Positions 44,490-58,138 of a stretch of DNA of 64,000 bases are shown one piece after another. The DNA is taken from positions 62,001 to 126,000 of the forward strand of contig MERU01000006.1 of assembly GCA_001770725.1 (NCBI GenBank). The letters are read 5' to 3'. The position numbers and the translations under genes were made by a program. Numbering within the stretch: the first letter of the stretch is position 1; every line of letters begins with the position of its first letter. Source of the stretch: Burkholderiales bacterium RIFCSPHIGHO2_01_FULL_63_240. Lineage in GTDB: Bacteria > Pseudomonadota > Gammaproteobacteria > Burkholderiales > Burkholderiaceae_C. Below the pieces are notes generated by a model. That model was not told where the DNA came from. It searched no databases and saw nothing but the letters and a program-made list of their open reading frames with translations.

Positions 44490-45473
44490 ATGTCTGCCGT
44501 CATGAACAACGAATCCACTTCTTCGCCCTCGACCGCGCCCATCCAGCGCACCTACGAGCCGGTGCCCGGCCTGCGCGAGAGCATCGTCTCGACCTTGATG
44601 CGCGCCAGCCTGCGCTTTCTGTTCAAGCCGGTGATCAAGCCGCCGATGCCGGTGGGCCTGCAGCGCGCCGTGCTGCACACGCTGTCGGTGTCGATGCCGC
44701 CCGGTGGCGGCGTGAAGGTCGAGCACGTGAAGGTGGGCAACATGACGGCCGAGCGCATCACGCCCAAGGCCACGCCCCAGCCGAAGCACGCCATGCTGTA
44801 CCTGCACGGCGGCGCGTTCTGCGCCGGCAGCCCGCGCAGCCACCGCAGCATCACCACGCGCCTGAGCCGACTGGCCAACTGCGAGGTGCTGGCCATCCAC
44901 TACCGCCGCGTGCCGGAGCACCCCTTCCCGGCGCAGATCGAGGATTCGGTCGAGGGTTTCAAGGACCTGCTCAAGCGCGGCTACAAGCCCGAGAACATCG
45001 CCGTGGGCGGCGACTCGGCGGGTGGCACGCTGACCCTGCTGGTCTTCAAGGCCCTGGAGCTCGAAGGCCTGCCCACGCCCAAGTGCCTGGTGATGATGTC
45101 GCCCGCTTTTGACGCCAAACTCAACAGCGACAGCGTCAAGAAGTACAAGAAGCTCGACCCGATGATCAACATCGAGTGGGGCATGCAGGGCTTCGCCTGG
45201 TACCGCCCGCGCCACGACCACACGCTGGCCTTCCCCAAGCGCCAGGACCTGAGCACCTTGCCGCCCACGCTGGTGCAGGTTGGCGAGATCGAGGTGTTGC
45301 ACGACGACTCGGTGTGGCTGCTGCACGCTTCCAAGCGCTTTGATCGGCACGTGGAGCTGGAGGTCTACAAGGACCGCTGGCACGTGTTCCAGATCCATGC
45401 TGGCTTGATGCCGAGTGCGACGAAGGCGCTTGAGCGGCAGGCTGCGTTCATGAAGCAGCATTGGGGTGTGTGA
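44490..45473 (+). CDS. HSL-type alpha/beta hydrolase (esterase/lipase)
   Basis: This 327-residue esterase of the hormone-sensitive-lipase group has an HGGAF oxyanion motif (LYLHGGAFCAGSPRSH) and the nucleophile in VGGDSAGGTL. The acid lies in EIEVLHDDS, and the His in DRWHVFQIH. It has no signal peptide, so it is probably cytoplasmic. AAGGA lies 7 nt before ATG 44490. It is probably co-transcribed with the SDR upstream and followed by a repeat-rich, gene-free stretch. Confidence 0.88.
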   Translation: MSAVMNNESTSSPSTAPIQRTYEPVPGLRESIVSTLMRASLRFLFKPVIKPPMPVGLQRAVLHTLSVSMPPGGGVKVEHVKVGNMTAERITPKATPQPKHAMLYLHGGAFCAGSPRSHRSITTRLSRLANCEVLAIHYRRVPEHPFPAQIEDSVEGFKDLLKRGYKPENIAVGGDSAGGTLTLLVFKALELEGLPTPKCLVMMSPAFDAKLNSDSVKKYKKLDPMINIEWGMQGFAWYRPRHDHTLAFPKRQDLSTLPPTLVQVGEIEVLHDDSVWLLHASKRFDRHVELEVYKDRWHVFQIHAGLMPSATKALERQAAFMKQHWGV

Positions 45474-45478
45474 TTTTT

Positions 45479-45663
45479 GTGCGCGCTGGTTGGGGCGTGG
45501 TTCGGTGGGTGAGGGGCGTGTGATCCGGCCCTGCGCGGGGCACCACCGAGCTGGTTGAGCCGTCACCCCTTGAACACCGGCCTGGTGGTTGCCGAGTCAG
45601 GACACCGCACATGTCGGGCCGGCTCACACGCCCCTCACCCACCGAACCCGAACCACCGCGCAC
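45479..45663. repeat. Palindromic cassette 1: core with terminal inverted repeats
   Basis: The arms at 45500-45530 and 45617-45647 are 31-bp inverted repeats with one mismatch. Weaker matching continues outward to about 45479 and 45663. Between them lies a core of about 80 bp (45534-45613) that begins CGCGGGGCACCACCG and ends CAGGACACCGC. A related core lies in reverse orientation in cassette 2. It looks like a structured, non-coding repeat. No open frame of note is inside. See cassette 2 and the terminator between them. Confidence 0.75.
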
Positions 45664-45675
45664 GGCCTGGTTGGT

Positions 45676-45715
45676 GGAAGAAAAAGGGCGACGCAAGCGT
45701 CGCCCTTTTTCTTCC
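45676..45715. terminator. Bidirectional terminator with perfect 19-bp arms
   Basis: GGAAGAAAAAGGGCGACGC (45676-45694), AA, and its exact complement (45697-45715) form a long hairpin with an A-run on one side and a T-run on the other. It can therefore end transcription from both directions. It lies between the convergent hydrolase (plus) and fadD (minus) and exactly between the two palindromic cassettes. Confidence 0.9.
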
Positions 45716-45724
45716 TTCTCCGCC

Positions 45725-45905
45725 TGCCACGGTGTGTCGCGGGATGGGGGCCAGGGGGGCCTGCGCAGGGCCCATTCGCGGTGTCCTGGCTCGGCCACCA
45801 CTTGGTCGGTGTTCAAGAGGTGACGCATGCAGTGCGCGGTGGTGCCCCGCGAGCGAGGTCCCGGAGCAGGCCCCCCTGGCCCCCATCCCGCGACACACCG
45901 TGGCA
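45725..45905. repeat. Palindromic cassette 2: core with perfect 40-bp terminal inverted repeats
   Basis: 45725-45764 and 45866-45905 are perfect 40-bp inverted repeats, starting TGCCACGGTGTGTCGCGGGA. They are unrelated to the arms of cassette 1. The core (45773-45851) is an inverted, diverged copy of the core of cassette 1. Both share the 15-base CGCGGGGCACCACCG and the longer GTCACC...CTTGAACACCG...GCCGAG...CAGGACACCGC series when read in the same direction. As RNA or single-stranded DNA each cassette would fold into a long stem capped by the core. Confidence 0.78.
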
Positions 45906-45942
45906 AGCCCACCCCCCAAAACCACTCCCCTCACGCACCAAC

Positions 45943-45966
45943 AAAAAAGCCACCCCAGGGGATGGC
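45943..45966 (-). terminator. Intrinsic terminator of fadD
   Basis: Read on the minus strand, GCCATCCCC is followed by TGGGGTGGC and six T. The stem has a single bulge. It lies about 45 nt downstream of the fadD stop, so it should end the fadD transcript before it enters the palindromic cassettes. Confidence 0.75.
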
Positions 45967-46008
45967 TTCCGAATCACGCCTCGCAGCAGGCGACCAGGCC
46001 TCAGCCCA

Positions 46009-47736
46009 TCAAGCCGCCTTCTTGCGCGCCTGAGCCGCCAGCCGCGCCAGCTCCTCATCGCGCAAATCCTTGCGCAGGATCTTGCCCACGTTGCTCATCG
46101 GCAGGTCCTCGCGGAACTCGATGTGGCGGGGCCGCTTGTAGCCCGTGAGCTGCTCCTTGCAGTACTCGGCGATGTCGGCCTCGGACAGGCTGTAGTCCTT
46201 GCGCACCACGAACAGCTTGACCGCCTCGCCCGACTTCTCGTCCGGCACCCCGATGGCGCAGCACTCGGTCACGCCCGGGTGCAGGCTCACCACCTGCTCG
46301 ATCTCGTTGGGGTACACGTTGAAGCCCGAGACCAGGATCATGTCCTTCTTGCGGTCGACGATCTTGAACAGGCCGTCGGCCGACATCACGCCCACGTCGC
46401 CGGTGCGGAAGAAGCCGTCGGCCGTCATGACCTTGGCGGTCTCTTCGGGGCGCTGCCAGTAGCCGGCCATCACCTGCGGGCCACGCACCGCGATCTCGCC
46501 GGGCTCGCCCTGGGCCACGGGCTGGCCGTTGTCGTCGAGCAGCACCACTTCGGTGGAGGGCAGCGGGTAGCCGATGGCGGCGTTGTAGCCCATGTTGTCC
46601 AGGCGGTTGACCGTCACCACGGGCGAGGTCTCGGACAGGCCGTAGCCTTCGACGATGGGCACGCCGGTGATGCGGTGCCAGGCCTCGGCGGTTGATTGCT
46701 GAACGGCCATGCCGCCGCCGTTGCACACCTTCAGGCGCGAGAAGTCGAGCTGTGCGAAATCGGGCTCTTCCACCAGGGCGTTGTAGAGCGTGTTGACCGC
46801 CGGGAACTGCGTGACCTTGAAGGGCTTGAGCGTCTCGATCAGCTTGCCGATGTTGCGGGCGTTGTCGATCATGACGTTGAGCGTGCCCATGCGCGCGCTC
46901 AGGAAGAAGCACACCGTCAGCGCGAACACGTGGTAGAGCGGCAAGGCCACCACGTTGACCAGCTGGCCCTCGACCTTCGAGAGCTCGGGCTTGAACCAGG
47001 CCTCGCACTGCAGGATGTTGGCCACCAGGTTGCGGTGCGTGAGCGTGGCGCCCTTGGAGACGCCCGTGGTGCCACCGGTGTACTGCAGGAAGGCGACGTC
47101 GCTGCCCTTGAGGGCCGGGCGCTGGAAGGGCAGGGACTTGCCCTGCTTGAGCGCGGCCTTGAAGGGCGTGACGCGGCAGCGGCCGTTGTCGGGCAGCTTG
47201 AAGTCGATGACGTGCTTGTCGACGTTGCGCGACTTGTACGTGACCCAGGGGCCCTTGATGGCGCCGAACACGTCGCCCAGCGAGGCCAGCAGGATGTGCT
47301 TGACCGGCGTGCGCTCGATGACTTCCTGCACCGTGGGGCCGAAGTACTCCAGCACGATGATGACCTCGGCGCCCGAGTCGACCAGCTGGTGCTCGAGCTC
47401 ACGCGGCGTGTACATCGGGTTGACGTTGACGACCACGTGGCCGGCGCGCAGCACGCCGGCGATGGCCACGGCGTAGTGCGGCACGTTGGGCATCATCACG
47501 GCGACGCGGCTGCCCTTGGGCAGCTTCTGCGCCTGCAGCCAGGCGGCCAGCTGCAGCGACTGGCGGTCCACGTCGGCGAACGTCCAGCGCGAACCCAGGT
47601 AGGCCATCGAGTCGGCCTTGGCGTGGGTGCGAAAGGCCTCTTCCAGCAACTCGACCAGCGAGGGGTAGGCGTCGGGGTTGACCTCGGCCGGGACGCCTTG
47701 ACCGTACTGCTGCAACCAGGGTTTGACGTTCGTCAT
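46009..47736 (-). CDS. fadD: Long-chain fatty-acid-CoA ligase
   Basis: This 575-residue AMP-forming ligase activates fatty acids for beta-oxidation. Its motifs are YTGGTTGVSKGATLTH (P-loop), VEGYGLSETSP, GFFRTGDVG and VDRKKDMILVSGFNVYPNE. The C-terminal Lys region is PMSNVGKILRKDLRDEE. GGAAG lies before ATG 47736. The open frame continues further upstream through the neighbouring ABC gene, but only by chance in GC-rich DNA. A terminator follows. Confidence 0.94.
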   Translation of the reverse strand: MTNVKPWLQQYGQGVPAEVNPDAYPSLVELLEEAFRTHAKADSMAYLGSRWTFADVDRQSLQLAAWLQAQKLPKGSRVAVMMPNVPHYAVAIAGVLRAGHVVVNVNPMYTPRELEHQLVDSGAEVIIVLEYFGPTVQEVIERTPVKHILLASLGDVFGAIKGPWVTYKSRNVDKHVIDFKLPDNGRCRVTPFKAALKQGKSLPFQRPALKGSDVAFLQYTGGTTGVSKGATLTHRNLVANILQCEAWFKPELSKVEGQLVNVVALPLYHVFALTVCFFLSARMGTLNVMIDNARNIGKLIETLKPFKVTQFPAVNTLYNALVEEPDFAQLDFSRLKVCNGGGMAVQQSTAEAWHRITGVPIVEGYGLSETSPVVTVNRLDNMGYNAAIGYPLPSTEVVLLDDNGQPVAQGEPGEIAVRGPQVMAGYWQRPEETAKVMTADGFFRTGDVGVMSADGLFKIVDRKKDMILVSGFNVYPNEIEQVVSLHPGVTECCAIGVPDEKSGEAVKLFVVRKDYSLSEADIAEYCKEQLTGYKRPRHIEFREDLPMSNVGKILRKDLRDEELARLAAQARKKAA

Positions 47737-47767
47737 GACACGCTTCCGAAAGAAAAGACGAGAATCT

Positions 47768-47781
47768 ATCTGAAAACAGAT
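47768..47781. promoter_or_regulatory. Inverted repeat upstream of fadD
   Basis: ATCTG (47768-47772), AAAA, CAGAT (47777-47781) lie 32 bp before the fadD start, in a 119-bp gap after the ABC exporter gene. The surrounding stretch is AT-richer and may hold the fadD promoter. A regulator site is possible but short. Confidence 0.3.
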
Positions 47782-47855
47782 CGTGTCATTTTGCGTGCAA
47801 CCCGGGAATCCGGCCATCCCCGGGGTGTGTGCGTTCGCGTGCGACGGGGTGTCGT

Positions 47856-50078
47856 TCAGCCTTCCCTTGGCGCTGGCACGTCCGCCGGGTCGATCAGCTT
47901 GCCTTGCCACAGCACGCGCACCGCGTCGCCCTCGCGCAGCGAATGCTCGCGGTGGGTGATGATGAAGCGCCCGCAGCCCAGCGCGTTGATGGCGTCCTGC
48001 ACGCGCTTTTCGGTGGCGAAGTCCAGGTGGCTGGTGTACTCGTCGAGCAGCAGGAAGCGCGGCCGCTTGTAGAGCGCACGCGCCAGCAGGATGCGCTGCT
48101 TTTGTCCGCCCGAGAGCGTGGCGCCCATGCTGCCCACCAGCGTCTGGTAGCCCATGGGCATGCGCGCGATGTCCTCGTGCACGCAGGCCAGGGCGGCGGC
48201 GGCTTCGACCTTCTCGGCGCTGGCCTCGGCGTCGTTCATGGCGATGTTGTCGTGGATGCTGCACGAGAACAGCTGGTCGTCCTGGAAGACGGTGCCCAGC
48301 ACCGAGCGGAAGGCTTCGGCGCCCAGCGAGGCCATGGGCACGCCGTTGAGCAGCACCTCGCCCGCCTCGGGCGTGACCTGCCCGCACAGGATCTTCATCA
48401 GCGTGGACTTGCCGCAACCTGAAGGGCCGAGCACGGCCACCGCCTGCCCGGTGTGCAGGGTCAGGCTGACGTGGTCGAGCACCGGCGCCTCGTCGCGCGC
48501 ATAGCGGAAGACGACGTCGCGCAGGCTCAGGGTCATGGGCTCTGGCTCGCCGGTGGGGGCCCCCTGGCTGCCGTGAGCCGACTGCGTGGACAAGGCCTGC
48601 AGCCCCGCGCGGTGCCCCGCCTGCGCTGGCGAGGCCGGCTCCGTCGGCGTGAGCACGATGTCGGCCAGCCGGTCGCCCTGCAGGCGCAACAGCCGCAGGC
48701 TGATGACGCGCTCGATGAGGTCGTTGGCGCGCTGCAGGAACTGCCCCTTGTAGGCCATGAAGGCCACCAGCATGCCGATGGAGAACTGCTCGGCGATGAT
48801 CATCTGCGCGGCCAGGTAGAGCACCAGCGCCTGCTCGATGGCGCCGATCACGCCGTTGACGCCCTGGTGCAGCAGGTTGATGCGCTCTTGCTTGACGCGG
48901 GCGTTGACCATGCTGGCCTGCTGGTTCATCCAGCCGGCCACGCGCCAGCCGGGTCGCGAGAAGAACTTGATGGCGTTCATGCCGCGCAGCGTCTCCATCA
49001 GGAAGGTCTGCGCTTGCGCCTCGCGCACGATGAGCTCTTCCGAGGCCCGGCGGAATGGCCCGAACACCGCCAGCCGCACCAGCAGGTACAGCGTGGCCAC
49101 GACCAGCACGATGGCCGCGAGTTTCGGGCTGTAGGCGAACATCAGGCCCAGCGTCACCAGGCTGACGGCGCCGTCGAGCACGGCTTCGACCAGCTCGCGC
49201 GTGAGCGTGTCCTGGATGGTGTCGACCGAAGCGAAGCGCGACATGACGTCGCCCGTGTGGCGCTTGTCGAAGTAGGACAGCGGCAGGCGGATGAGGTGGC
49301 GAAAGACCTGAGTGCTGCTGTTGAGCTTCCAGCTCAGGCTGGTGCCCAGCACGACCCAGCTGCGCATCAGCCGCGTCAGCAGCGACATCAGCGCCAGCAG
49401 GCCCAGCGAGGTCGCCAGCACCGCCAGCAATGGCGTGTCGCGGCTGACGATGACGTCGTCGATGACCCACTGGCTGAGCATCGGCATGAGGATGGCGAAG
49501 ACCTCCAGCACCAGCGAGAGCACGGCCATCTGCGAGAAGGCCCGCCACAGGCCGGGCTGACCCTTGAAGAGCGAGCGCAGCTTCCAGTCGCTGCGCTCCT
49601 TGCGCGGGCGAAAGCCAGGTGCCGGCGCCAACTCCAGCGCCACGCCAGTGAAGTGCGGGCTGGCCTCCTTGAGCGTCAGCTTGCGCTCGCCCATGGCCGG
49701 GTCGTGAATGGTGATGCTTCGGGCGTCGGCGCGCACCAGCACCACGAAGTGGTTGAGGTCCCAGTGCAGCAGGCAGGGCGTGCGCAGCTCGGGCAGCTCT
49801 TGCAGCTCCAGGCGCAACGCCCGGTTGGACAGGCCCATCTGCTCGGCGATGTCCATGAGTTGCGCCAGCGTGGCCCCGCGCGACGACAGCTCGAAGCGCT
49901 GGCGCAGGCTCGCCAGGTCGGTGTCGAGGCCGTGGGCACCGGCCACCATGGCCAGGCAGGCCAGGCCGCACTCGGCGGCTTCCGACTGAAGGATCAGGGG
50001 CACGCGCTGGCGTGGCCACAGCTTGAAGGGGCTGAAGGTGGCGGGCGCTTGAGGCGAGGACGAGGGCGAGGCTGCCAT
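47856..50078 (-). CDS. Peptidase-containing ABC exporter (C39 peptidase, bacteriocin type)
   Basis: This 740-residue exporter cleaves double-glycine leaders and pumps the peptide across the inner membrane. The N-terminal C39 domain has oxyanion Gln31 and catalytic Cys37 (QSEAAECGLACLAM), His110 (HWDLNHFVVLV) and Asp126 (ITIHDPAMGE). A six-helix membrane domain spans about 170-450. The nucleotide-binding domain has GPSGCGKST, LSGGQKQR and LLLDEYTSHLD. It is the last gene of the tolC-hlyD-exporter run, 12 nt after hlyD. The likely substrate is the peptide encoded at 53138. Confidence 0.93.
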   Translation of the reverse strand: MAASPSSSPQAPATFSPFKLWPRQRVPLILQSEAAECGLACLAMVAGAHGLDTDLASLRQRFELSSRGATLAQLMDIAEQMGLSNRALRLELQELPELRTPCLLHWDLNHFVVLVRADARSITIHDPAMGERKLTLKEASPHFTGVALELAPAPGFRPRKERSDWKLRSLFKGQPGLWRAFSQMAVLSLVLEVFAILMPMLSQWVIDDVIVSRDTPLLAVLATSLGLLALMSLLTRLMRSWVVLGTSLSWKLNSSTQVFRHLIRLPLSYFDKRHTGDVMSRFASVDTIQDTLTRELVEAVLDGAVSLVTLGLMFAYSPKLAAIVLVVATLYLLVRLAVFGPFRRASEELIVREAQAQTFLMETLRGMNAIKFFSRPGWRVAGWMNQQASMVNARVKQERINLLHQGVNGVIGAIEQALVLYLAAQMIIAEQFSIGMLVAFMAYKGQFLQRANDLIERVISLRLLRLQGDRLADIVLTPTEPASPAQAGHRAGLQALSTQSAHGSQGAPTGEPEPMTLSLRDVVFRYARDEAPVLDHVSLTLHTGQAVAVLGPSGCGKSTLMKILCGQVTPEAGEVLLNGVPMASLGAEAFRSVLGTVFQDDQLFSCSIHDNIAMNDAEASAEKVEAAAALACVHEDIARMPMGYQTLVGSMGATLSGGQKQRILLARALYKRPRFLLLDEYTSHLDFATEKRVQDAINALGCGRFIITHREHSLREGDAVRVLWQGKLIDPADVPAPREG

Positions 50079-50090
50079 GGTGGGTGGGGA

Positions 50091-51350
50091 TCAGAGGCGG
50101 CCGCTGAAGGCGAACAGGGGGTCGAGCATCCAGCGCAGCAGCGAGCGGCGGTCGAGCTCGATGTCGGCGCTCAGCGTGTGGCCCGGGCGCAGGGGGATGT
50201 CGGTGTCGTAGGCGCGCACGGTGCTGCGCTCCAGCGTCACGCGCACCAGGAAGATGGCGCGGCGGTCGCCTTGCTCGCGGGCGCCCTGCGGCACGGGCAC
50301 GTCGGACTGCGACACCGAGCGCACCACGCCGCGGTGTTGGCCGAAGCGCTGGTAGGGGAAGGCGTCGTAGGCGATGCGCACCACCTGGCCGGCGCGGATG
50401 AAGCCCATGGCGGTGCTGGGCACGTGCAGCACCGCTTCGAGCGGTGAGTCGTCGGGGACGATGCTCAGCATCGGGGCGGCCGGGCTCACGGTCTGCCCGA
50501 CGCCGGCTTGCAGCCCGGTGACGGTGCCGCTCACGGGCGCTTTCAGCCAGCTCAGCTGCTGGCTGCGTTGTTGGGCCGATTCACGCTGAAGCGAGAGGCG
50601 GTCGCGCTCGAGGCCGGCCTGGCTGACGCGGTGCTCAGCCTGCAGGCGCGATTGTTCTTCGCGCGCCTGGGCCCACTCGCTGCGGGCCGCGCTGAGTTGC
50701 CGCTGCAGCCCTTGCAGCCGCGCGGTGTGGTCCAGCAGCGACTGGCGTTGCTGCTCGTACTGCAGTTGCGAGACGATGCGCTCTTCCAGCAGCGGGGCCA
50801 TCTGGTCGAGCACCTTGCGCACCGAGGCGATCTGCTCCTGTTGCAAGGCGATGTCGGTCTGCAGCGACTGGGCGTCCTGCTGGTGGCGCAAGGTCTGCTG
50901 GTTGAGCGCATCCAGGCGCGCGCGCAGGGCCAGGGTTTGCGCTTCGGCCTGGTCGGTGATCCGCTCGCGCTGGCCTTGCAGGCTCGATTCGATCTGTCCT
51001 GAAGCGCTGCCGCCGTCGGTGAAGCGCTCCTGGCGCAACTCCGCCACCACGTCTCCGGCGCGCACGTGCTGTCCTTCCTGAACCCGCAGGCGGTGCAGCA
51101 CCGCGGTCTGGTCGGGGGTGAGCAAGGCCACGCCGTTGCGCGGCTGCAGGCTGCCCGAGACGCGTTCCTTCTTGGTGTGTTGCCCGAACGCCAGCACCAG
51201 CACGACGGCCAGGCACAGCGTGGCGGCGAACAGCGTGAGCGCGCCACCACCGACGGGCTGGATGTGCAGGGGCGCGCCATCGGCGGTGTGGCTGCGCGCC
51301 TGGAGCACCTCGGGGCGAAAGAGGGGGGTGTCGTCGTGTGGCTCGCTCAT
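50091..51350 (-). CDS. HlyD-family periplasmic adaptor of the peptide exporter
   Basis: This 419-residue membrane-fusion protein has one N-terminal membrane segment (about 39-58, LTLFAATLCLAVVLVLAFG). A biotinyl-lipoyl half motif (LRVQEGQHVRAGDVVAEL) precedes a long coiled-coil hairpin (about 120-270). The second half of the lipoyl domain is APVSGTVTGLQAGVGQTV, and the C-terminus is beta-rich. It links the ABC exporter to the outer-membrane channel. Its ATG overlaps the stop of the tolC-like gene as ATGA. Confidence 0.9.
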   Translation of the reverse strand: MSEPHDDTPLFRPEVLQARSHTADGAPLHIQPVGGGALTLFAATLCLAVVLVLAFGQHTKKERVSGSLQPRNGVALLTPDQTAVLHRLRVQEGQHVRAGDVVAELRQERFTDGGSASGQIESSLQGQRERITDQAEAQTLALRARLDALNQQTLRHQQDAQSLQTDIALQQEQIASVRKVLDQMAPLLEERIVSQLQYEQQRQSLLDHTARLQGLQRQLSAARSEWAQAREEQSRLQAEHRVSQAGLERDRLSLQRESAQQRSQQLSWLKAPVSGTVTGLQAGVGQTVSPAAPMLSIVPDDSPLEAVLHVPSTAMGFIRAGQVVRIAYDAFPYQRFGQHRGVVRSVSQSDVPVPQGAREQGDRRAIFLVRVTLERSTVRAYDTDIPLRPGHTLSADIELDRRSLLRWMLDPLFAFSGRL

Positions 51351-52816
51351 GGTGATGGGGGGGCGAGGAGAGAAGGGGAGGCGTCAAACAGGCCCTGCCA
51401 TGGCGCCACGTGGACGGCGTCGAGCTGCCCCAGCAGGGCCAGGGCATCGCAGCCAGCCTGGAGCGCGGCCACCCGGGCGCTGGCCCAGGCCATGCGTGCG
51501 TCGTGAACCCGTTGCTGGGCGTCGAGCAGGTCGGTCGTGCTGCGCAGGCCCGCCAGCCAGGCCTTCTGGATGGCCTCCAGCGTGGCCTGCGAGCTCGCCA
51601 CCACGGATTCCTGGCGCGCCTGGTGGCGCAGCGCCTGTTCATGGCGCTGGTAGGCGTCCTGCAATTCGGTGCTCACACGCGATTCGGCTTCGTCGAGCTG
51701 GGCCTGTGCGGCGCTGAGCAGGGCGGCGGCTTCACGCTGGCGGGCGTCTTGCAGGCCCGAGGTGAACAGCGGCCAGTTCAGCACCAGGCCCACGGCGTCG
51801 GTGCGGACGTCCTGGCGGTCGCTCTGGCCTTCGAAGCGCTGGGTCTGGCGGGTGCGGCCGCGGCTGGCGGTGGCGTCGAGCGTTGGTTGCCATCGCTCGG
51901 CGTCGCGCGAGCGCAGCGTCTCCAGGCTGGCGCGCACACCCGCTCGCGCGTCCAGCACCTCGGGGTGTTGGGCCAGGGCTTGCGCCAGCGCGTCGGGCAG
52001 GCTGGGCAAGGCCAGGGCGACGGCGCTGGAGGCCTGTGGGTTCAGGCCCTCGGGCGGGACCACGCTCAGGCCGCTGAGCCGCTCCAAGGTCAAGGTGTGG
52101 GTGCGCAGCCGCGAGCGAAGTTGGTCGCGCTGAGCCAGTGCTTGCGCCTGCCTGGCTTGTGTCTCCAGCGTGTCGAGCACCGTGCCCAGCCCAGCCCGCA
52201 ACCGTTTGTCGTGGGCGAGGGCCTGTTGGTCGAGGGCGCTGAGGTGGGTGAGGGTCAGCCGGGTGTGCTCGGCGGCTTCGGCGGCGGCCAGGTAGCTCTG
52301 GCTGAGCTCGCGCGCCAGCGTTTGCCGACGCAGTCCGAGTTGCCACTGGGCTTGCTCCGCCAAGGCGCCTTGGGCACGGGCCTCGGCGCGTTCGGCCGGT
52401 CGCCACAGGGGCAGGGTGGCCTGCAGGGAGGCCGCCGAGCTGGGGGTGCGCGAGGCGATGCCGTTGTAGCGTTGGCGTTGCTCGTCGGTGCGCAGGCTGG
52501 CGTCCAGTCGGGGCAGCCAGGCACGGGCCTGACCCTGTTGGCGAAGGGCTTCGCTGGCATCGGCCCGCGCACGGGCTTGCGTCACGCCGTGGGCCTGATC
52601 GAGTTGCCCGAGCAGGGTCACCCAGCTGGTGGCGGCCGCGCCTTCGGCCGGAGGTGGCGGCGGGGGTTCCTTGACAGCGGGGGCGGCCGTGGGCCAGCTC
52701 AAGTGCTGGCTGAGGGTCAGGGCGTGGGCGGCAGGCCAGCCGGCCGAGGCCATGACCAGGGCCAGGCACAACCGAAGCGGAGCGCCGAGCCGGCCGGGGT
52801 GAAGCTCATGGGGCAC
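51347..52816 (-). CDS. TolC-family outer-membrane channel of the peptide exporter
   Basis: This 489-residue outer-membrane efflux protein has a signal peptide (LCLALVMASAGWPAAHA). It has two homologous coiled-coil repeats (about 75-265 and 280-470), with typical patterns such as GLRSTTDLLDAQQRVHDARM near the end. It appears to start with GTG at 52816, since no in-frame ATG precedes the signal peptide. It is the first gene of the export operon, 321 bp from the divergent peptide gene. Confidence 0.88.
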   Translation of the reverse strand: MPHELHPGRLGAPLRLCLALVMASAGWPAAHALTLSQHLSWPTAAPAVKEPPPPPPAEGAAATSWVTLLGQLDQAHGVTQARARADASEALRQQGQARAWLPRLDASLRTDEQRQRYNGIASRTPSSAASLQATLPLWRPAERAEARAQGALAEQAQWQLGLRRQTLARELSQSYLAAAEAAEHTRLTLTHLSALDQQALAHDKRLRAGLGTVLDTLETQARQAQALAQRDQLRSRLRTHTLTLERLSGLSVVPPEGLNPQASSAVALALPSLPDALAQALAQHPEVLDARAGVRASLETLRSRDAERWQPTLDATASRGRTRQTQRFEGQSDRQDVRTDAVGLVLNWPLFTSGLQDARQREAAALLSAAQAQLDEAESRVSTELQDAYQRHEQALRHQARQESVVASSQATLEAIQKAWLAGLRSTTDLLDAQQRVHDARMAWASARVAALQAGCDALALLGQLDAVHVAPWQGLFDASPSLLAPPSP

Positions 52817-53137
52817 GGGAAGTCGGCCAATGGATGCGGGCTGAGAAGACGAGCTTGCATTTTCCTCGGCGGGTCGGCCCGGTATGGGCCCTTTGATTCA
52901 TTTGCTTGCCGTCACCGGGAATCAATTGCGAATTTTTTGGTTCTTGACCCGCATTCAAATGGCGCGATAACCCGGTGGTTAACCATTTATGGTGATATGT
53001 CATTCCATCTGTCTTTCTGGTTTGACTGATGAATGAAATTGGGTGGGTTATTCCCGTTTCGGTAAATGGGCTGCGATAAGAAAATTCGTTGGTGGGTTCA
53101 TCAATATCCACATCTCAAACCGATATAGGAAAAAATC
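52817..53137. promoter_or_regulatory. AT-rich divergent region upstream of the peptide gene, with promoter candidate
   Basis: This 321-bp gap is clearly richer in A and T than the rest of the window. A sigma70-like promoter reads toward the peptide gene: TTGACC (52944-52949), 16 bp, GATAAC (52966-52971). The 10-bp palindrome TGGTTAACCA (52976-52985) begins 5 bp after the -10 and could be an operator. The leader to the peptide start is then about 160 nt. A promoter for the tolC-like gene must lie here too, but none stands out. Confidence 0.5.
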
Positions 53138-53323
53138 ATGAAAATCCTGAACGCGCAAGAAATCAAGCAAGTCAGCGGTGGCGCCCTGGACCCTGAGCTG
53201 GGTCTGTTCAAGCGCACGGGCATCGCCCTGATCGACGCCATCCACAAGAACGAGTGGAACACCTACGGCCGCCCCCTGTACAACACGTTCGCCGTGCTGC
53301 TGGGCTTCCCCAAGGCCCCTTGA
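53138..53323 (+). CDS. Double-glycine-leader secreted peptide (bacteriocin-like precursor)
   Basis: This is a 61-residue precursor with AGGA 7 nt before the ATG. The leader MKILNAQEIKQVSGG fits the C39-exporter pattern: hydrophobic residues at -12 (Leu4), -7 (Ile9) and -4 (Val12), Glu at -8, and Gly-Gly at -2/-1. The mature part would be 46 residues starting ALDPELGLFKRTG. It has no cysteine, has amphipathic or hydrophobic stretches (TGIALIDAIHKN, LYNTFAVLLGFP) and ends in PKAP. The divergent exporter operon lies next door and a strong terminator follows. A killing role would normally need an immunity gene, and none is visible nearby, so signalling or another role is also possible. Confidence 0.82.
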   Translation: MKILNAQEIKQVSGGALDPELGLFKRTGIALIDAIHKNEWNTYGRPLYNTFAVLLGFPKAP

Positions 53324-53376
53324 TCGCTGATTCGGCCGGGGTGCCCGCCACCCCTCGCTGATCTCGGTCACACGCG

Positions 53377-53412
53377 AAAAGGCCGCCTCCTGTCACCAGG
53401 GGCGGCCTTTTT
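53377..53412 (+). terminator. Intrinsic terminator after the secreted peptide gene
   Basis: AAAAGGCCGCC (53377-53387) pairs with GGCGGCCTTTT (53401-53411), with an inner CCTG/CAGG pairing in the loop and a T-run at 53408-53412. The A- and T-runs make it usable from both sides. It lies between the peptide gene and the convergent TetR gene. Confidence 0.85.
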
Positions 53413-53442
53413 CATGGTGTTTTTGGCCGGATTTTGTGGGTT

Positions 53443-54105
53443 TTACCCTGCCGCGGCATTCAGTTGCGTCATCCAGCTGTCCAGCCCCATCCATGCATAA
53501 TGGGTGTGATCCACCACCGTCTCGATCGGGTCTGAAAAATCGCGCTCGATCCAGCGCATGGCGGTGTTGATGATCATGCCCATGCAGCCCAGCACCACAT
53601 ATTCCATGTTGGGTTTGTTGTAGGCGTTGGGGTATCGCTGCCTGAACCTGGATTTCAGCAGTTCGATGACAAAGGCATATTGCTCGTCGATGCGCTGTTG
53701 GGCGTTCAGCCCGCTGGCAGACGAGTCAAGGATCAGGATGCGCGCGCGACGCGGGTCGGAGCGGATGTGTTCAAAAAAGGCGGTGAGGCCGCCTCGAGCC
53801 CGAAGCAGCAGATCGCCAGGCAGGCTGCGGATGGCCATTTCAACCACTTGAGCGGCTTCCAGGCAAGCCTGGGTGTGCACCGCCACGTAACAGTCGTGGG
53901 TGCTGCCGAAGTGCTCGTAGAAATAGCGGTCGGCCAGTCGCGCTTGCGCGCAGATCAGCCTCATCGTGGTCTGCCGGTAACCCTGCTGACCGAAGACCTC
54001 GAAGGCCGCGGTCATCAGGCGCTGGCGCCGTTCCTCGGCACGCTCCTGTGCGGAGGCCCCGCCATAACGGCGGGCGGCCGCAGCAGGAGCGTGTGAGGTG
54101 GCCAC
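53443..54105 (-). CDS. TetR-family regulator downstream of acyl-CoA dehydrogenase
   Basis: This 220-residue regulator starts with GTG (VATSHAPAAAARRYGG). The helix-turn-helix is VFGQQGYRQTTMRLICAQA...LADRYFYEHFGS, with a helical ligand domain behind. It begins 12 nt after the acyl-CoA dehydrogenase stop on the same strand, so the two are probably co-transcribed. It is a paralog of the TetR protein at 42545. Autoregulation through the two palindromes at 56004-56034 is one possibility. It might also act on the neighbouring peptide locus, but nothing shows this directly. Confidence 0.8.
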   Translation of the reverse strand: MATSHAPAAAARRYGGASAQERAEERRQRLMTAAFEVFGQQGYRQTTMRLICAQARLADRYFYEHFGSTHDCYVAVHTQACLEAAQVVEMAIRSLPGDLLLRARGGLTAFFEHIRSDPRRARILILDSSASGLNAQQRIDEQYAFVIELLKSRFRQRYPNAYNKPNMEYVVLGCMGMIINTAMRWIERDFSDPIETVVDHTHYAWMGLDSWMTQLNAAAG

Positions 54106-54117
54106 GGTTGCTGTCGA

Positions 54118-55938
54118 TCAGTTGAAGCTGAAGTGCTCGTTGCTCATCTGCATGATCGAGCTGGTCGGCGACATCATGGTCTTCTTGTGGCCGTCGGCGC
54201 GGGGCAGCAGGCGCTCGAAGTAGAACTCCGCCGTTTGCAGCTTGGCGGTGTAGAACTCCTTGGAGTCATTGCCGCCCTTGGCCAGCTTCTCGTTGGCGAC
54301 GAGGGCCTGCTTGAGCCAGAAGTGACCCATCATCACGTAGCCCGAGTACATCAGGAAGTCGTTGCAGGCGGCCGAGACCACGTCGCGGTCCTTGTTGGCG
54401 CGCAGCATGATCTGCAGGGTCAGCCACTTCCATTGCAGGGCGCGCTTGAAGCAGGCGCGGGCCATCTTGCCGACCGGGCCACCATCGAGCAGGTGGGGCT
54501 TGGCCTGGGCGATCATCTCGTTGGTGAAGTTGAAGACGCACTTGCCACGCGATTGCAGCAGGGTCTTGCGGCCCAGCAGGTCAAGCGCCTGGATGCCGGT
54601 GGTGCCTTCGTACAGGGTCGAGATGCGCGCGTCACGGGCGATCTGCTCCATGCCGTGCTCCTTGATGTAGCCGTGGCCACCGAAGACCTGCATGCCCAGG
54701 TTGGCGCACTCCAGGCCCAGCTCGGTGATGAAGCCCTTGAGGATCGGGGTGTAGAAGCCCAGGCGGTCGTCGTACTCTTCGTACTTGGCCTTGTCGCCTT
54801 GGGCGACGCCAGCCACCATGTGGTCGGCCAGCTTGCCAGTGTGGTAGATCATGGCGCGAGCGCCTTCGGCCACGGCCTTTTGCGTCAGCAGCATGCGGCG
54901 CACGTCGGCGTGCCAGATCAGGGCGTCGTTGGGGTGGTCGGCGTCCTTCTTGCCGGTGAGGGCGCGCATCGAGCGGCGTTCCTTGGCATAGGGCAGGGCG
55001 CCCTGGTAGGACAGCTCGGCGTGGGCCAGGCCTTGCACGGCGGTGCCGATGCGGGCGGTGTTCATGAAGGTGAACATGGCTTCGAGGCCCTTGTTGGGCT
55101 CGGCGATCATGTAGCCGATGGCGTCGTCGAAGTTCATCACGCAAGTGGCCGAGGCGCGGATGCCCATCTTGTGCTCGAGCGCGCCGGCCTTGACCGTGTT
55201 GCGCGCACCCAGGCTGCCATCCTTGTTGACCAGGAACTTGGGCACGATGAACAGCGAGATGCCGCGTGTGCCCTTGGGGGCGTCCGGCAGGCGGGCCAGC
55301 ACGATGTGGATGATGTTGTCGGCCAGGTCGTGTTCACCCGAAGAGATGAAGATCTTGGTGCCGGTGAGCTTGTAGGTGCCGTCGCCCACGGGCTCGGCCT
55401 TGGTCTTGACCTGACCCAGGTCGGTGCCGCACTGGGGCTCGGTCAGGCACATGGTGCCGGTCCACTCGCCGCTGACCAGCGGGGGCATGTAGGTGTTCTT
55501 CTGCTCGGTCGAGCCGAACTGGAAGACGGTGTTCATGCAGCCCAGCGACAGGCCGGGGTACATGGTGAACGACCAGTTGGCCGTGCCCATCATCTCGGCC
55601 TTGAGCAGGTTCAGCGACATGGGCAGCTCCTGGCCGCCGTATTCCTTCGGGTGCGACAGGCCTTGCCAGCCGCCAGCCACGTACTCCTTGTAGGCTTCCT
55701 TGAAGCCCTTGGGGGTGGTGACTTCGCCGTCCTGGATGGTGCAGCCTTCCAGGTCGCCGGGCAGGTTCAAGGGGGCCAGCACCTCTTCGCAGAAGGTGGC
55801 GCAACCCTCCAGGATGGCGTCGACCATGTCGGGCGTGGCCTCATCGCCGCCGGGCAGGGCCTTGTAGTGGCCTTCGTAGTCGAAGACTTCGTTGAGCAGG
55901 AAGCGCACGTCGCGCAAAGGAGCCTTGTACTGCGGCAT
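54118..55938 (-). CDS. Acyl-CoA dehydrogenase (long form, about 600 residues)
   Basis: This 606-residue flavoenzyme belongs to the longer acyl-CoA dehydrogenase branch. An N-terminal domain (MPQYKAPLRDVRFLLNEVFDY) is followed by the middle FAD-binding part (MCLTEPQCGTDLGQVKTKA, TKIFISSGEHDL). The C-terminal helical domain (FGGHGYIKEHGMEQIARDAR) is followed by the extra C-terminal segment typical of this branch. It catalyses the first step of beta-oxidation or of a related acyl-CoA pathway. GAGG lies before the ATG. Two PsrA-like palindromes lie about 70-100 bp upstream. Confidence 0.92.
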   Translation of the reverse strand: MPQYKAPLRDVRFLLNEVFDYEGHYKALPGGDEATPDMVDAILEGCATFCEEVLAPLNLPGDLEGCTIQDGEVTTPKGFKEAYKEYVAGGWQGLSHPKEYGGQELPMSLNLLKAEMMGTANWSFTMYPGLSLGCMNTVFQFGSTEQKNTYMPPLVSGEWTGTMCLTEPQCGTDLGQVKTKAEPVGDGTYKLTGTKIFISSGEHDLADNIIHIVLARLPDAPKGTRGISLFIVPKFLVNKDGSLGARNTVKAGALEHKMGIRASATCVMNFDDAIGYMIAEPNKGLEAMFTFMNTARIGTAVQGLAHAELSYQGALPYAKERRSMRALTGKKDADHPNDALIWHADVRRMLLTQKAVAEGARAMIYHTGKLADHMVAGVAQGDKAKYEEYDDRLGFYTPILKGFITELGLECANLGMQVFGGHGYIKEHGMEQIARDARISTLYEGTTGIQALDLLGRKTLLQSRGKCVFNFTNEMIAQAKPHLLDGGPVGKMARACFKRALQWKWLTLQIMLRANKDRDVVSAACNDFLMYSGYVMMGHFWLKQALVANEKLAKGGNDSKEFYTAKLQTAEFYFERLLPRADGHKKTMMSPTSSIMQMSNEHFSFN

Positions 55939-56347
55939 ATGTCACCTCGGTTGGTCTGGGGGCAGGCGGCTTGTGGCCGTTGCGGTCAAAGATGGATAAA
56001 TTCGAACGATCGTTCATTTCAAACGATCGTTTGAGTCAGGCGGGTTTATACCCCATGGCGCGGCGCTTGTGTCAAGGATCTCCGCGAGGGTGGGGCGGTT
56101 TTCGCCCTTGCACGGGGCCAAGCTCCCGCGAACAAGGGGTGTGTCGTGTCTCGTTCCCAGCCTGTGAAAGGGGCCGGTTCAGGGCATTTCCCAGGGTGGT
56201 GGCGCTCACCGGCCCGGTGGTTAGCCCGTTCGTGTTGCGCAATCTCCCCATGGCGTCGTGGCGCGCCGTCTCTCCAGAATGCGCAACCCTGGCGTGTAAC
56301 GCGTGTCGTTTGATGACCGGGGCCCATTCCTCAATCTGGAGAGAGAC
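55939..56347. promoter_or_regulatory. Divergent region between acyl-CoA dehydrogenase and lipase
   Basis: This 409-bp gap carries promoters for both genes. The acyl-CoA dehydrogenase side holds two palindromes (listed separately). The lipase side, from about 56060, is ordinary GC-rich DNA in which I see no clear promoter or coding sequence. Confidence 0.55.
56004..56034. promoter_or_regulatory. Two tandem PsrA/FadR-type palindromes
   Basis: GAACGATCGTTC (56004-56015) and TCAAACGATCGTTTGA (56019-56034) are perfect palindromes whose centres are 17 bp apart. The second contains CAAAC, four bases, GTTTG, which is the binding pattern known for the TetR-family fatty-acid regulator PsrA of pseudomonads. 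Their place upstream of an acyl-CoA dehydrogenase fits fatty-acid control. Confidence 0.7.
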
Positions 56348-58138
56348 ATGCAAACCGTTCGCTTCGTTCTTCGCGCGCTGCCCCTTGCCGCGCTGGTCTG
56401 CGCCCTCGGCACGGCCTCGGCCGCCCCGGTGGAAGGCCCCGCCGACATGCGCTTTTATGACGCCCCCGCTGCGCTCACTGGCCAGCACGGTGACCTGATT
56501 TCCTACCGTGGCACGACCGTCAACCTGGGTGCGGGCTCGCCCACCACCAAGGCCTGGAACGTGATGTACCAGTCGACCGATTCGCGTGGCGCCGCCAACG
56601 TGGTCACGGGCACCGTCATCGTGCCGACCACCGCCTGGACCGGCGGTGGCGAGCGCCCGGTGATCTCCTACGCCGTCGGCACCCACGGCCTGGCCCAGCG
56701 CTGCGCCCCGTCGCTGCAGCTCAGCCAGGGCAAGGACTACGAGGCCGCCAACATCGCTGCCGCGCTCAAGGCCGGCTACGCCGTGCTGGTCTCCGACTAC
56801 CAGGGCTACACCAACGGCGCCACCCCGACCTACCTGGCCGGCGCTTCGCAAGGCAACGCCGTGCTCGACATCGTGCGCGCTGCCACCCAGGTGCCGCTCA
56901 GCGGCATCACCAGCTCGGCCAAAGTCGCCATCTGGGGTTATTCGCAAGGCGGCCAGAGCGCTGCCTGGGCCGCCCAGCGTCAAGCCGCCTACGCGCCCGG
57001 CGTGAAGCTGACGGCCGTGGCCGCCGGTGGCGTGCCCGCCGACTTCCCCGTGACCGCCCGCTACCTCGACGGCAGCACCGGTGCTTCCTTCCTGCTCGGC
57101 GGCGTGATCGGCCTGGCCCAGCAATACCCTGACGCCATCCCCCTAGACACCCTGGCCAACGCCGACGGCAAGGCCACCATCCAGCGCGGCAAGCAGCAGT
57201 GCGTGTTCGAGGCGTTGTTCGATCTGCAGAACGACAAGCTGTCGCAGTACACCGTGGGCAACCAGTCGCTGGACCAGTTGCTGGCCGCCAAGCCCGAGAT
57301 CAACGCGGTGGTGCAGGCGCAGAACCTGGGCGCCGACAAGGTCGGCGTGCCGCTGTACCAGTACCACGGCAAGGCCGACGAGTTCATCCCGCTGGCCCAG
57401 ACCGTGGCGCTCAAGAGGAAGTACTGCAGCAAGTTCTCCAACGTCACCTTTGACACCTACCCCAGCGAGCACATCGCCACGCAGTTCCAGGCCGCACCCT
57501 ATGTGCTGAGCTGGCTGGCCGACCGCTTCGCCGGCAAGACCACCCTGGGCACCTGCCTGACGCTCAATGCCGAGCCGAAGTCGACCGCTTACCCGCCGGG
57601 TGGCAACCTGGTGGTGGGCCTGGACAAGTGGCCGCTGACCGCCTCGGTGGGCCTCAAGACCCTGGGCCAGACGGTGAACCTGCCGGCCGCCTCCACCTTC
57701 ACGGCCGAAGCCGACGTGACCCAGCCGCGCCTGTCGGGCACCCTGAACGTGCCCAACTTCAAGCAGACCATCAGCATCATCGGCCTGCCCATCTCCGTGG
57801 GCCTGCAGATCACGCCGGTCGGCAGCGCCACGGGCACCGTCAACCTCGACACAGAGGGCCAGCTGAAGATCCGCGGCAACGCACAGGCCAACATCACCAT
57901 CACCTCGGTGCTGGGCATCCCGTTTGGCGAGTGCAAGACCGAAAAGCCGGTGGACTTCCCGCTGGTCTTCGACGGTCCGGTCTCGTCGCTGGGCAATGGC
58001 GGCCTGACCTTCCAGGGCACGACCACCTTCCCGCAGATCAAGGGCTGCATGATCTCGGCCATCCTCTCGGCGCTGATGTCCGGCAGTGGTCAGACCTACA
58101 GCTTCACGGTCGCACCGCCCGCACCTGTGCGTTATTGA
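56348..58138 (+). CDS. Secreted lipase (secretory-lipase family) with extra C-terminal beta domain
   Basis: This 596-residue exported protein has a signal peptide (MQTVRFVLRALPLAALVCAL, cut after ASA). An alpha/beta-hydrolase part (about 20-400) resembles the secretory lipase (LIP) family, with VISYAVGTHGLAQRCAPS, the nucleophile in AIWGYSQGGQSAAWA, the acid in YHGKADEFIPL and the His in YPSEHIATQF. A C-terminal part (about 410-596) is beta-rich and not recognised. GGAGAG precedes ATG 56348. The next gene, a membrane-anchored protein, follows after a hairpin. Confidence 0.82.
   Translation: MQTVRFVLRALPLAALVCALGTASAAPVEGPADMRFYDAPAALTGQHGDLISYRGTTVNLGAGSPTTKAWNVMYQSTDSRGAANVVTGTVIVPTTAWTGGGERPVISYAVGTHGLAQRCAPSLQLSQGKDYEAANIAAALKAGYAVLVSDYQGYTNGATPTYLAGASQGNAVLDIVRAATQVPLSGITSSAKVAIWGYSQGGQSAAWAAQRQAAYAPGVKLTAVAAGGVPADFPVTARYLDGSTGASFLLGGVIGLAQQYPDAIPLDTLANADGKATIQRGKQQCVFEALFDLQNDKLSQYTVGNQSLDQLLAAKPEINAVVQAQNLGADKVGVPLYQYHGKADEFIPLAQTVALKRKYCSKFSNVTFDTYPSEHIATQFQAAPYVLSWLADRFAGKTTLGTCLTLNAEPKSTAYPPGGNLVVGLDKWPLTASVGLKTLGQTVNLPAASTFTAEADVTQPRLSGTLNVPNFKQTISIIGLPISVGLQITPVGSATGTVNLDTEGQLKIRGNAQANITITSVLGIPFGECKTEKPVDFPLVFDGPVSSLGNGGLTFQGTTTFPQIKGCMISAILSALMSGSGQTYSFTVAPPAPVRY

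Follow-up and report, generated by a model that had tools for sequence, protein, structure and literature searches.

Small Gram-negative peptides whose leader ends in a double glycine (GG) are commonly read as microcins. The class II microcins, exemplified by microcin V with its CvaAB-TolC exporter, are made as precursors with a 15-residue leader ending in GG or GA and pass through a peptidase-containing ABC transporter (PCAT) with a Cys-His-Asp triad, a membrane fusion protein (MFP) and TolC, their leaders being alike and their cores variable between kinds. The consulted sections of a class II microcin survey describe a screen for immunity proteins of at most 250 aa within three genes on each side and allow that perhaps not every microcin has one (PMC9746304). 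A precedent for the non-killing use of GG peptides is EbfG1-4 of Synechococcus elongatus, small GG-motif proteins with a biofilm role, which form several cargos whose secretion is aided by the C39 transporter PteB, according to the portions seen of PMC4997328 and PMC9981879. The Nap peptides of Neisseria gonorrhoeae, in the part of PMC11798529 at hand, are microcin-like GG/C39 peptides for which autolysis is reported and competitors are reportedly not killed. Herein, a related locus of the genus Aquabacterium is described from a stretch of 64,000 nucleotides (contig MERU01000006.1, positions 62,001 to 126,000, of Burkholderiales bacterium RIFCSPHIGHO2_01_FULL_63_240; hereafter the window), which is part of contig 6 in a 4.1-Mb genome and carries a short GG-leader peptide gene next to a tolC-hlyD-C39 ABC exporter. 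As judged from genome comparison, this peptide is no lone orphan but one among several cargos belonging to an exporter clade found across the genus.

The precursor gene (53138-53323, plus strand) starts with ATG and encodes 61 residues. The leader MKILNAQEIKQVSGG (residues 1-15; 53138-53182), recognised from its sequence and from a profile built on residues 1-20 of 22 peptides (profile A3), places L4 at -12, I9 at -7, V12 at -4 and G14-G15 at -2/-1, and the double-glycine rule predicts cleavage after G15. The predicted mature core (residues 16-61; 53183-53320) has 46 residues, no cysteine, a computed average mass of 5142.9 and a pI of 8.4, and AlphaFold2, supplied with a 20-row alignment, gave a single long helix over precursor residues 29-55 (mean pLDDT 81.5, pTM 0.55). 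A sequence-only reading of this DNA had proposed exactly such a 61-codon gene, with a leader obeying the C39-exporter rule and a 46-residue cysteine-free core, and both proposals were confirmed. The peptide has no match in Pfam, none above cut-off in NCBIfam and none in PADLOC. The class IIb bacteriocin model TIGR03949 (lactobin A/cerein 7B) reached only 13 of the 21.5 bits set as its cut-off, and aligned with residues 2-16 in the leader, leaving the core unmatched; a single PDB match at E 1 was treated as chance. On these comparisons, the libraries searched offer no family name for this GG-leader peptide, and open-licence literature searches, in which the Aquabacterium bacteriocin papers listed were judged by title, did not find its family described.

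Divergent from the peptide gene, on the minus strand, stand a TolC-type outer membrane channel (51347-52816, 489 aa, GTG start as listed; Pfam OEP E 6.8e-44; TIGR01844 169.1 bits, under the cut-off of 225), a HlyD-type MFP (50091-51350, 419 aa; HlyD_3 E 1.2e-16; TIGR01843 153.2 bits, under cut-off) and a C39 peptidase-containing ABC exporter, the PCAT (47856-50078, 740 aa; Peptidase_C39 E 4.3e-34, ABC_membrane 2.8e-40, ABC_tran 9.9e-33). The tolC and hlyD genes overlap by 4 bases and 12 bases separate hlyD from the ABC gene. By reading, the C39 triad Cys37, His110 and Asp126 is intact, and its spacing of 73 and 16 is identical to that of the CvaB triad Cys32/His105/Asp121 given in the consulted part of PMC9746304. 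Among the PDB relatives of the ABC protein are HlyB, ComA and an ABC-type bacteriocin transporter; the NHLP bacteriocin exporter model TIGR03796, the best of 196 matches, gave 488.6 bits, under its cut-off of 853.3. The three genes probably form a dedicated type I (PCAT) peptide exporter, and the earlier description of a divergent tolC-hlyD-C39 ABC set with its catalytic residues in place holds by both Pfam and triad reading. The whole system spans 47856 to about 53415, while the interval 51347-53323 first reported takes in tolC and the peptide gene only. The peptide gene lies 321 bases from tolC and 119 from a TetR gene on its other side.

That the open reading frame (ORF) 53138-53323 is more than a chance frame follows from its conservation across species (core pN/pS 0.18), from the hairpin with a T run at its 3' side and from its being the sole strong match to profile A3 in the window genome; the chance explanation was ruled out by conservation and terminator. 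The intrinsic terminator (53376-53415, plus strand) lies about 50 nt past the stop and has a 16-pair stem with one bulge followed by a T run; the 51-nt stretch folds at -30.7 kcal/mol (z -5.3), and 0 of 200 shuffles were as good. With the shuffle control confined to the window, a comparable hairpin and T run follows 8 of the 9 A-type copies described below, none being found in G034, and it is present in G003 too, where tolC comes next in the same direction. The peptide therefore probably has its own transcript.

Members of the peptide family occur in 18 of 42 Aquabacterium genomes (15 of 31 good genomes), with 20 full-length copies of two types. The A-type, of 61 aa, comprises the window, G001, G003, G004, G005, G014, G017, G025 and G034, and the B-type, of 56-59 aa, is found in G002, G008, G015, G016, G031, G032 (two copies), G038 (two copies) and G039; the copy of G041 is divergent. 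The motif IDxIHxxE[WY]NxYGxPL is common to A and B cores, which without leader share 13 or 14 of 20 residues (E 2e-9 and 2e-10 in single comparison). All 20 leaders end in GG (16) or GA (4), and neither homologues lacking such a leader nor peptide-bearing genomes lacking exporter genes were found. The suggestion that homologues always sit beside C39 exporters stood for genomes, as exporter genes are present in 18/18, and failed for single copies: 11 of the 20 adjoin the exporter, 7 are encoded at other genomic sites (that of G004, the B-type copies of G002, G008, G015 and G039, and the second copies of G032 and G038) and 2 (G017, G041) are at contig ends, where placement is not judgeable. Where B copies are separated from the exporter, the surrounding locus carries EAL, GGDEF and kinase genes, and no kinase gene was seen alongside A-type copies. 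A gene that we take to be metH-like adjoins several of these B copies, followed at L079, L085 and L091 by a membrane EAL protein (by Pfam in G008 and G002, by likeness in G039) and at L082 and L086 by a PEP-CTERM protein (by Pfam in G038, by likeness in G015).

Beyond the genus, the family, order and class were searched in mutually overlapping sample sets. In 299 genomes of the family, a single-sequence search returned only the source genome, as did profile A1 in 399 genomes of the order. With this profile, a set of 399 family genomes gave the source genome, G014 and two weak matches in 356- and 1190-aa frames, and 350 genomes of the class gave the source genome, two weak matches in 330- and 220-aa frames and two leader-only matches in G926; the weak and leader-only matches were not counted. 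In the genomes sampled, the peptide family accordingly is without a credible member outside Aquabacterium. A mobile-element origin was rejected, with zero viral contigs and zero plasmids, the single phage match at E 1 being taken as chance. The description of the peptide as apparently undescribed is upheld with respect to a library family name, and is amended in that it belongs to an 18-genome family and to a larger set of cargos.

Conservation of the A-type core is strong. Of its 46 residues, 45 agree with the window in G001 and G034, 44 in G014 and G005, 43 in G017 and G025 and 42 in G003, and over 36 pairs, which are not independent, the core has a mean pS of 0.335, pN of 0.060 and a ratio of 0.18, compared with 0.58 for the leader. 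The exporter proteins of the same loci have diverged further, G034 being 74% (ABC), 53% (HlyD) and 42% (TolC) identical to the window and G005 73%, 51% and 35%. Peptide pS (0.18-0.57) falls within the range of neighbouring genes (in G034, 0.36 against 0.28-0.59 for the neighbours), which argues that the likeness of the cores reflects constraint; recent transfer was ruled out as its source, the peptide gene being about as diverged at synonymous sites as the genes around it.

Relatives of the exporter are present in 26 of the 42 genus genomes, with at least 71% identity in 25 (only in part for G041) and 47% in G012, and the best relatives outside the genus, among the 299 family genomes, reach at most 50%. 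In a tree of 29 rows, one clade (100/100) unites 25 genus rows; G012 falls outside it, and 8 inner forks are unresolved. Nine cargo labels mapped on this tree need 8 changes, the minimum possible, compared with a mean of 19.2 after shuffling; for these labels G015 was scored as B-type with its peptide off the exporter, G019 as T5 from another contig end, and G017 as A-type with peptide and exporter on different contig starts. Profile A3 found leaders at E <1e-4 in 27/27 genomes with exporter genes and in 0/15 without, of which 8 have a completeness of 90% or more and a contamination of 5% or less. Since A3 was built from peptides of these genomes, the positives are partly built in, the matches of G019, G041:C58 and G039:C334 not being part of it; the 15 negatives are unaffected by this circularity. 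Matches at E 0.4-0.7 in 242-292-aa frames of four exporter-less genomes were taken as chance. In G039, which is 53% complete, the exporter evidence consists of tolC and part of hlyD adjoining a T2 cargo.

Six other kinds of GG-leader cargo, found by leader pattern, sorted by eye and then compared core against core (17 cores), occur beside the same exporter: T2, TFNLTNPCAPIP..., in G008, G002 and G039; T3, ...LNGKP..., in G022, G023, G030 and G028; T4, GLLGGILNTGAQ..., in G011; T5, a peptide pair, in G011 and G019; T6, TLPTVG..., in G021 and G009; and T7, which is cysteine-rich, in G004. Only G015 has no cargo beside its exporter, G041 is not judgeable, and adjacency in G017 and G019 is deduced because of contig ends. 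A second peptide of G041 may link T2 and T7 as remote relatives (E 2e-4 and 0.002-0.004), and the remaining kinds show no mutual match below 0.1 (best 0.16). T5 consists of two adjacent GG-leader genes at 3/3 places (L097:10282-10741, L163:3884-4320, L167:3273-3601), resembling two-peptide systems. G004 carries an A-type peptide, T7, a T5-like pair and two T4-like genes, the last being tandem genes for identical 59-aa GG-leader peptides (L166:3242-3765, G004:C44) on a contig other than that of the exporter. At L168:3005-4220 (G004:C63), a gene with a weak GG-like leader (E 0.125) continues into TTLAIGEEGG-like repeats beside a 310-aa neighbour without a Pfam match at E 0.01, and looks like a graspetide precursor.

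An immunity gene was sought among predicted genes of at most 260 aa lying up to 2.5 kb away from 37 cargo places, compared all-vs-all, with our own gene caller trained on seven window genes and with the cargo-like genes of G012 (L101), G008:C42 and G004:C63 left out. No small gene recurred in step with a cargo kind, the pattern expected of immunity. The groups that did recur were a TetR group, present at 9/9 A-type places with two other TetR proteins and the sole recurrent small gene beside the A-type; a group of 4 members which we presume to be DeoR-like; a MarR regulator beside 2 of 4 T3 cargos; flank genes of the B locus; a weak pair at the B places of G016 and G032; and the second T5 peptide. 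Counting three genes to either side of the window peptide, the TetR gene is the only predicted gene of at most 250 aa and no cognate immunity protein was seen, though the caller may miss genes; three ORFs, located in the spacer towards tolC or on the strand opposite the peptide gene, were ruled out, as they carry stops in some relatives. The earlier remark that no immunity-like small gene lies nearby holds within the limits of this screen.

From family membership and the strict coupling of leader and exporter, it is very probable that the exporter recognises the leader, cuts the precursor after Gly15 and threads the core out through the neighbouring C39-ABC/HlyD/TolC conduit, and the released product would be a 46-residue, probably helical peptide of near-neutral to weakly cationic character. 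What it does outside is a more evenly balanced matter. Set against the component list in the consulted part of PMC9746304, the locus has the GG/GA precursor, the PCAT with its triad, the MFP and TolC, and lacks a detected immunity protein; among its relatives, too, leaders are alike and cores vary from one cargo kind to another. Unlike in the class II microcins, the A-type core is kept across species, tolC stands inside the cassette, and in some lineages the peptide gene is divergent from the exporter. A non-lethal role, in which the peptide would act within its own genus, either as a signal or as a peptide of the surface or biofilm, like EbfG/PteB, would account both for the absence of an immunity gene and for the strong conservation of the A-type core; since neither linked immunity nor core diversification is seen, such a role is favoured over a microcin, at about even confidence. 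The EbfG comparison is one of description; amyloid is reported for EbfG1-3 in the sections consulted, whereas the window core is a predicted helix with HlyD-TolC encoded alongside. Broader and more tentative is the proposal of a genus-wide peptide-exchange system in Aquabacterium, in which different lineages would load one exporter clade with interchangeable, immunity-free cargos for communication or to build a surface community, not for killing, the IDxIHxxEWNxYGxPL peptide being the most conserved. Several points weigh against the non-lethal role: replacement of cargos on one exporter is also how a bacteriocin arsenal behaves; an immunity gene might be located elsewhere, exceed 260 aa or have escaped the gene caller, or immunity might reside in the exporter; 21 single small genes near cargos fall outside the screen, and cargo kinds of a single genome are beyond a recurrence test. 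Moreover, the amphipathicity of the predicted helix is not above chance (7-13% of shuffles are equally high), the B-type core is looser than its leader (pN/pS 0.36 against 0.24 in 9 of 10 copies, G002 left out), the A-type core of G004, the least conserved one, keeps 39/46 residues, and the EAL neighbour is limited to three B copies and possibly reflects mere neighbourhood.

The earlier alternative of a bacteriocin with hidden immunity or a signal is tipped by the conservation pattern towards a signal or surface peptide, without proof, and the bacteriocin is less favoured. A class II microcin-like bacteriocin killing close relatives, with immunity unlinked or built in as a target variant or in the exporter, nevertheless stays a serious, if somewhat doubtful, candidate: leader and PCAT-MFP-TolC parts agree with the list in the portion seen of PMC9746304, one exporter serves changing cargos, one cargo kind is paired at all three of its places, and glycine-rich hydrophobic cargos occur in G011 and G004. 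Cores that spare self yet hit neighbours would be expected to vary, while the A core is almost unchanged in several species, and none of the 37 cargo places yielded a recurrent immunity candidate. Programmed self-lysis of the Nap kind draws on the reported behaviour of those GG/C39 peptides and is unlikely here, since the putative immunity gene (napI) and the FapF-type channel of the nap island are not seen; the consulted part of PMC11798529 also gives Nap other export parts and a pI of 9-10, and the likeness is by description only. A link with the neighbouring fatty-acid genes, which encode TetR, an acyl-CoA dehydrogenase and an acyl-CoA ligase, for example with the peptide as a secreted helper under TetR control, would suit the TetR gene that flanks all A-type copies, even in G004 with its exporter elsewhere; it is likewise unlikely, as the neighbours are different at B-type copies and at other cargos and TetR homologues occur in 41/42 genomes, those of G009, G011 and G019 (47-49% identity) without a peptide of the window family. 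With 27 genomes, a single exporter clade, seven or more kinds of cargo, one of them strongly conserved across species, and no immunity gene found, the Aquabacterium set is a well-bounded environmental one in which to ask whether these peptides are weapon, signal or glue.

The TetR-family regulator itself (53443-54105, minus strand; TetR_N E 5.7e-11) is of uncertain membership and may instead go with the acyl-CoA genes. In the spacer between tolC and the peptide gene, the palindromic box TAACCCGnTGGTTAACC (TAACC-N4-GGTTA; 52968-52984) is a candidate operator, conserved with at most 1 mismatch at 5 of 9 A-type loci (window, G001, G014, G017, G025), and a second conserved box, GGGTTATTCCCGTTTCG (53045-53061), lies upstream of the peptide at 4 of 9 under the same limit. 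A promoter consensus scan found none, and Rfam at its gathering threshold gave no match in 45000-57000.

Outside the genus, exporter relatives of 47-50% identity (L170-L175, L178 and L179, for example L173:1505-5978) belong to loci with a LuxR-type regulator, HlyD and a C39 ABC protein, in which a short ORF ends in GG followed by 6-12 residues, the last being Trp; this ORF is present in 8 of the 10 loci retrieved, L176 and L177 being the exceptions. Autoinducer-binding and GerE domains were identified by Pfam in 3/3 regulators tested, and these loci possibly encode a LuxR-linked peptide signal system, on which the titles listed by literature searches showed nothing. The window genome also encodes two more ABC proteins with weak C39 matches, at G000:C12:51139 (L002, 33.8 bits) and G000:C2:761178 (L003, 24.7 bits).

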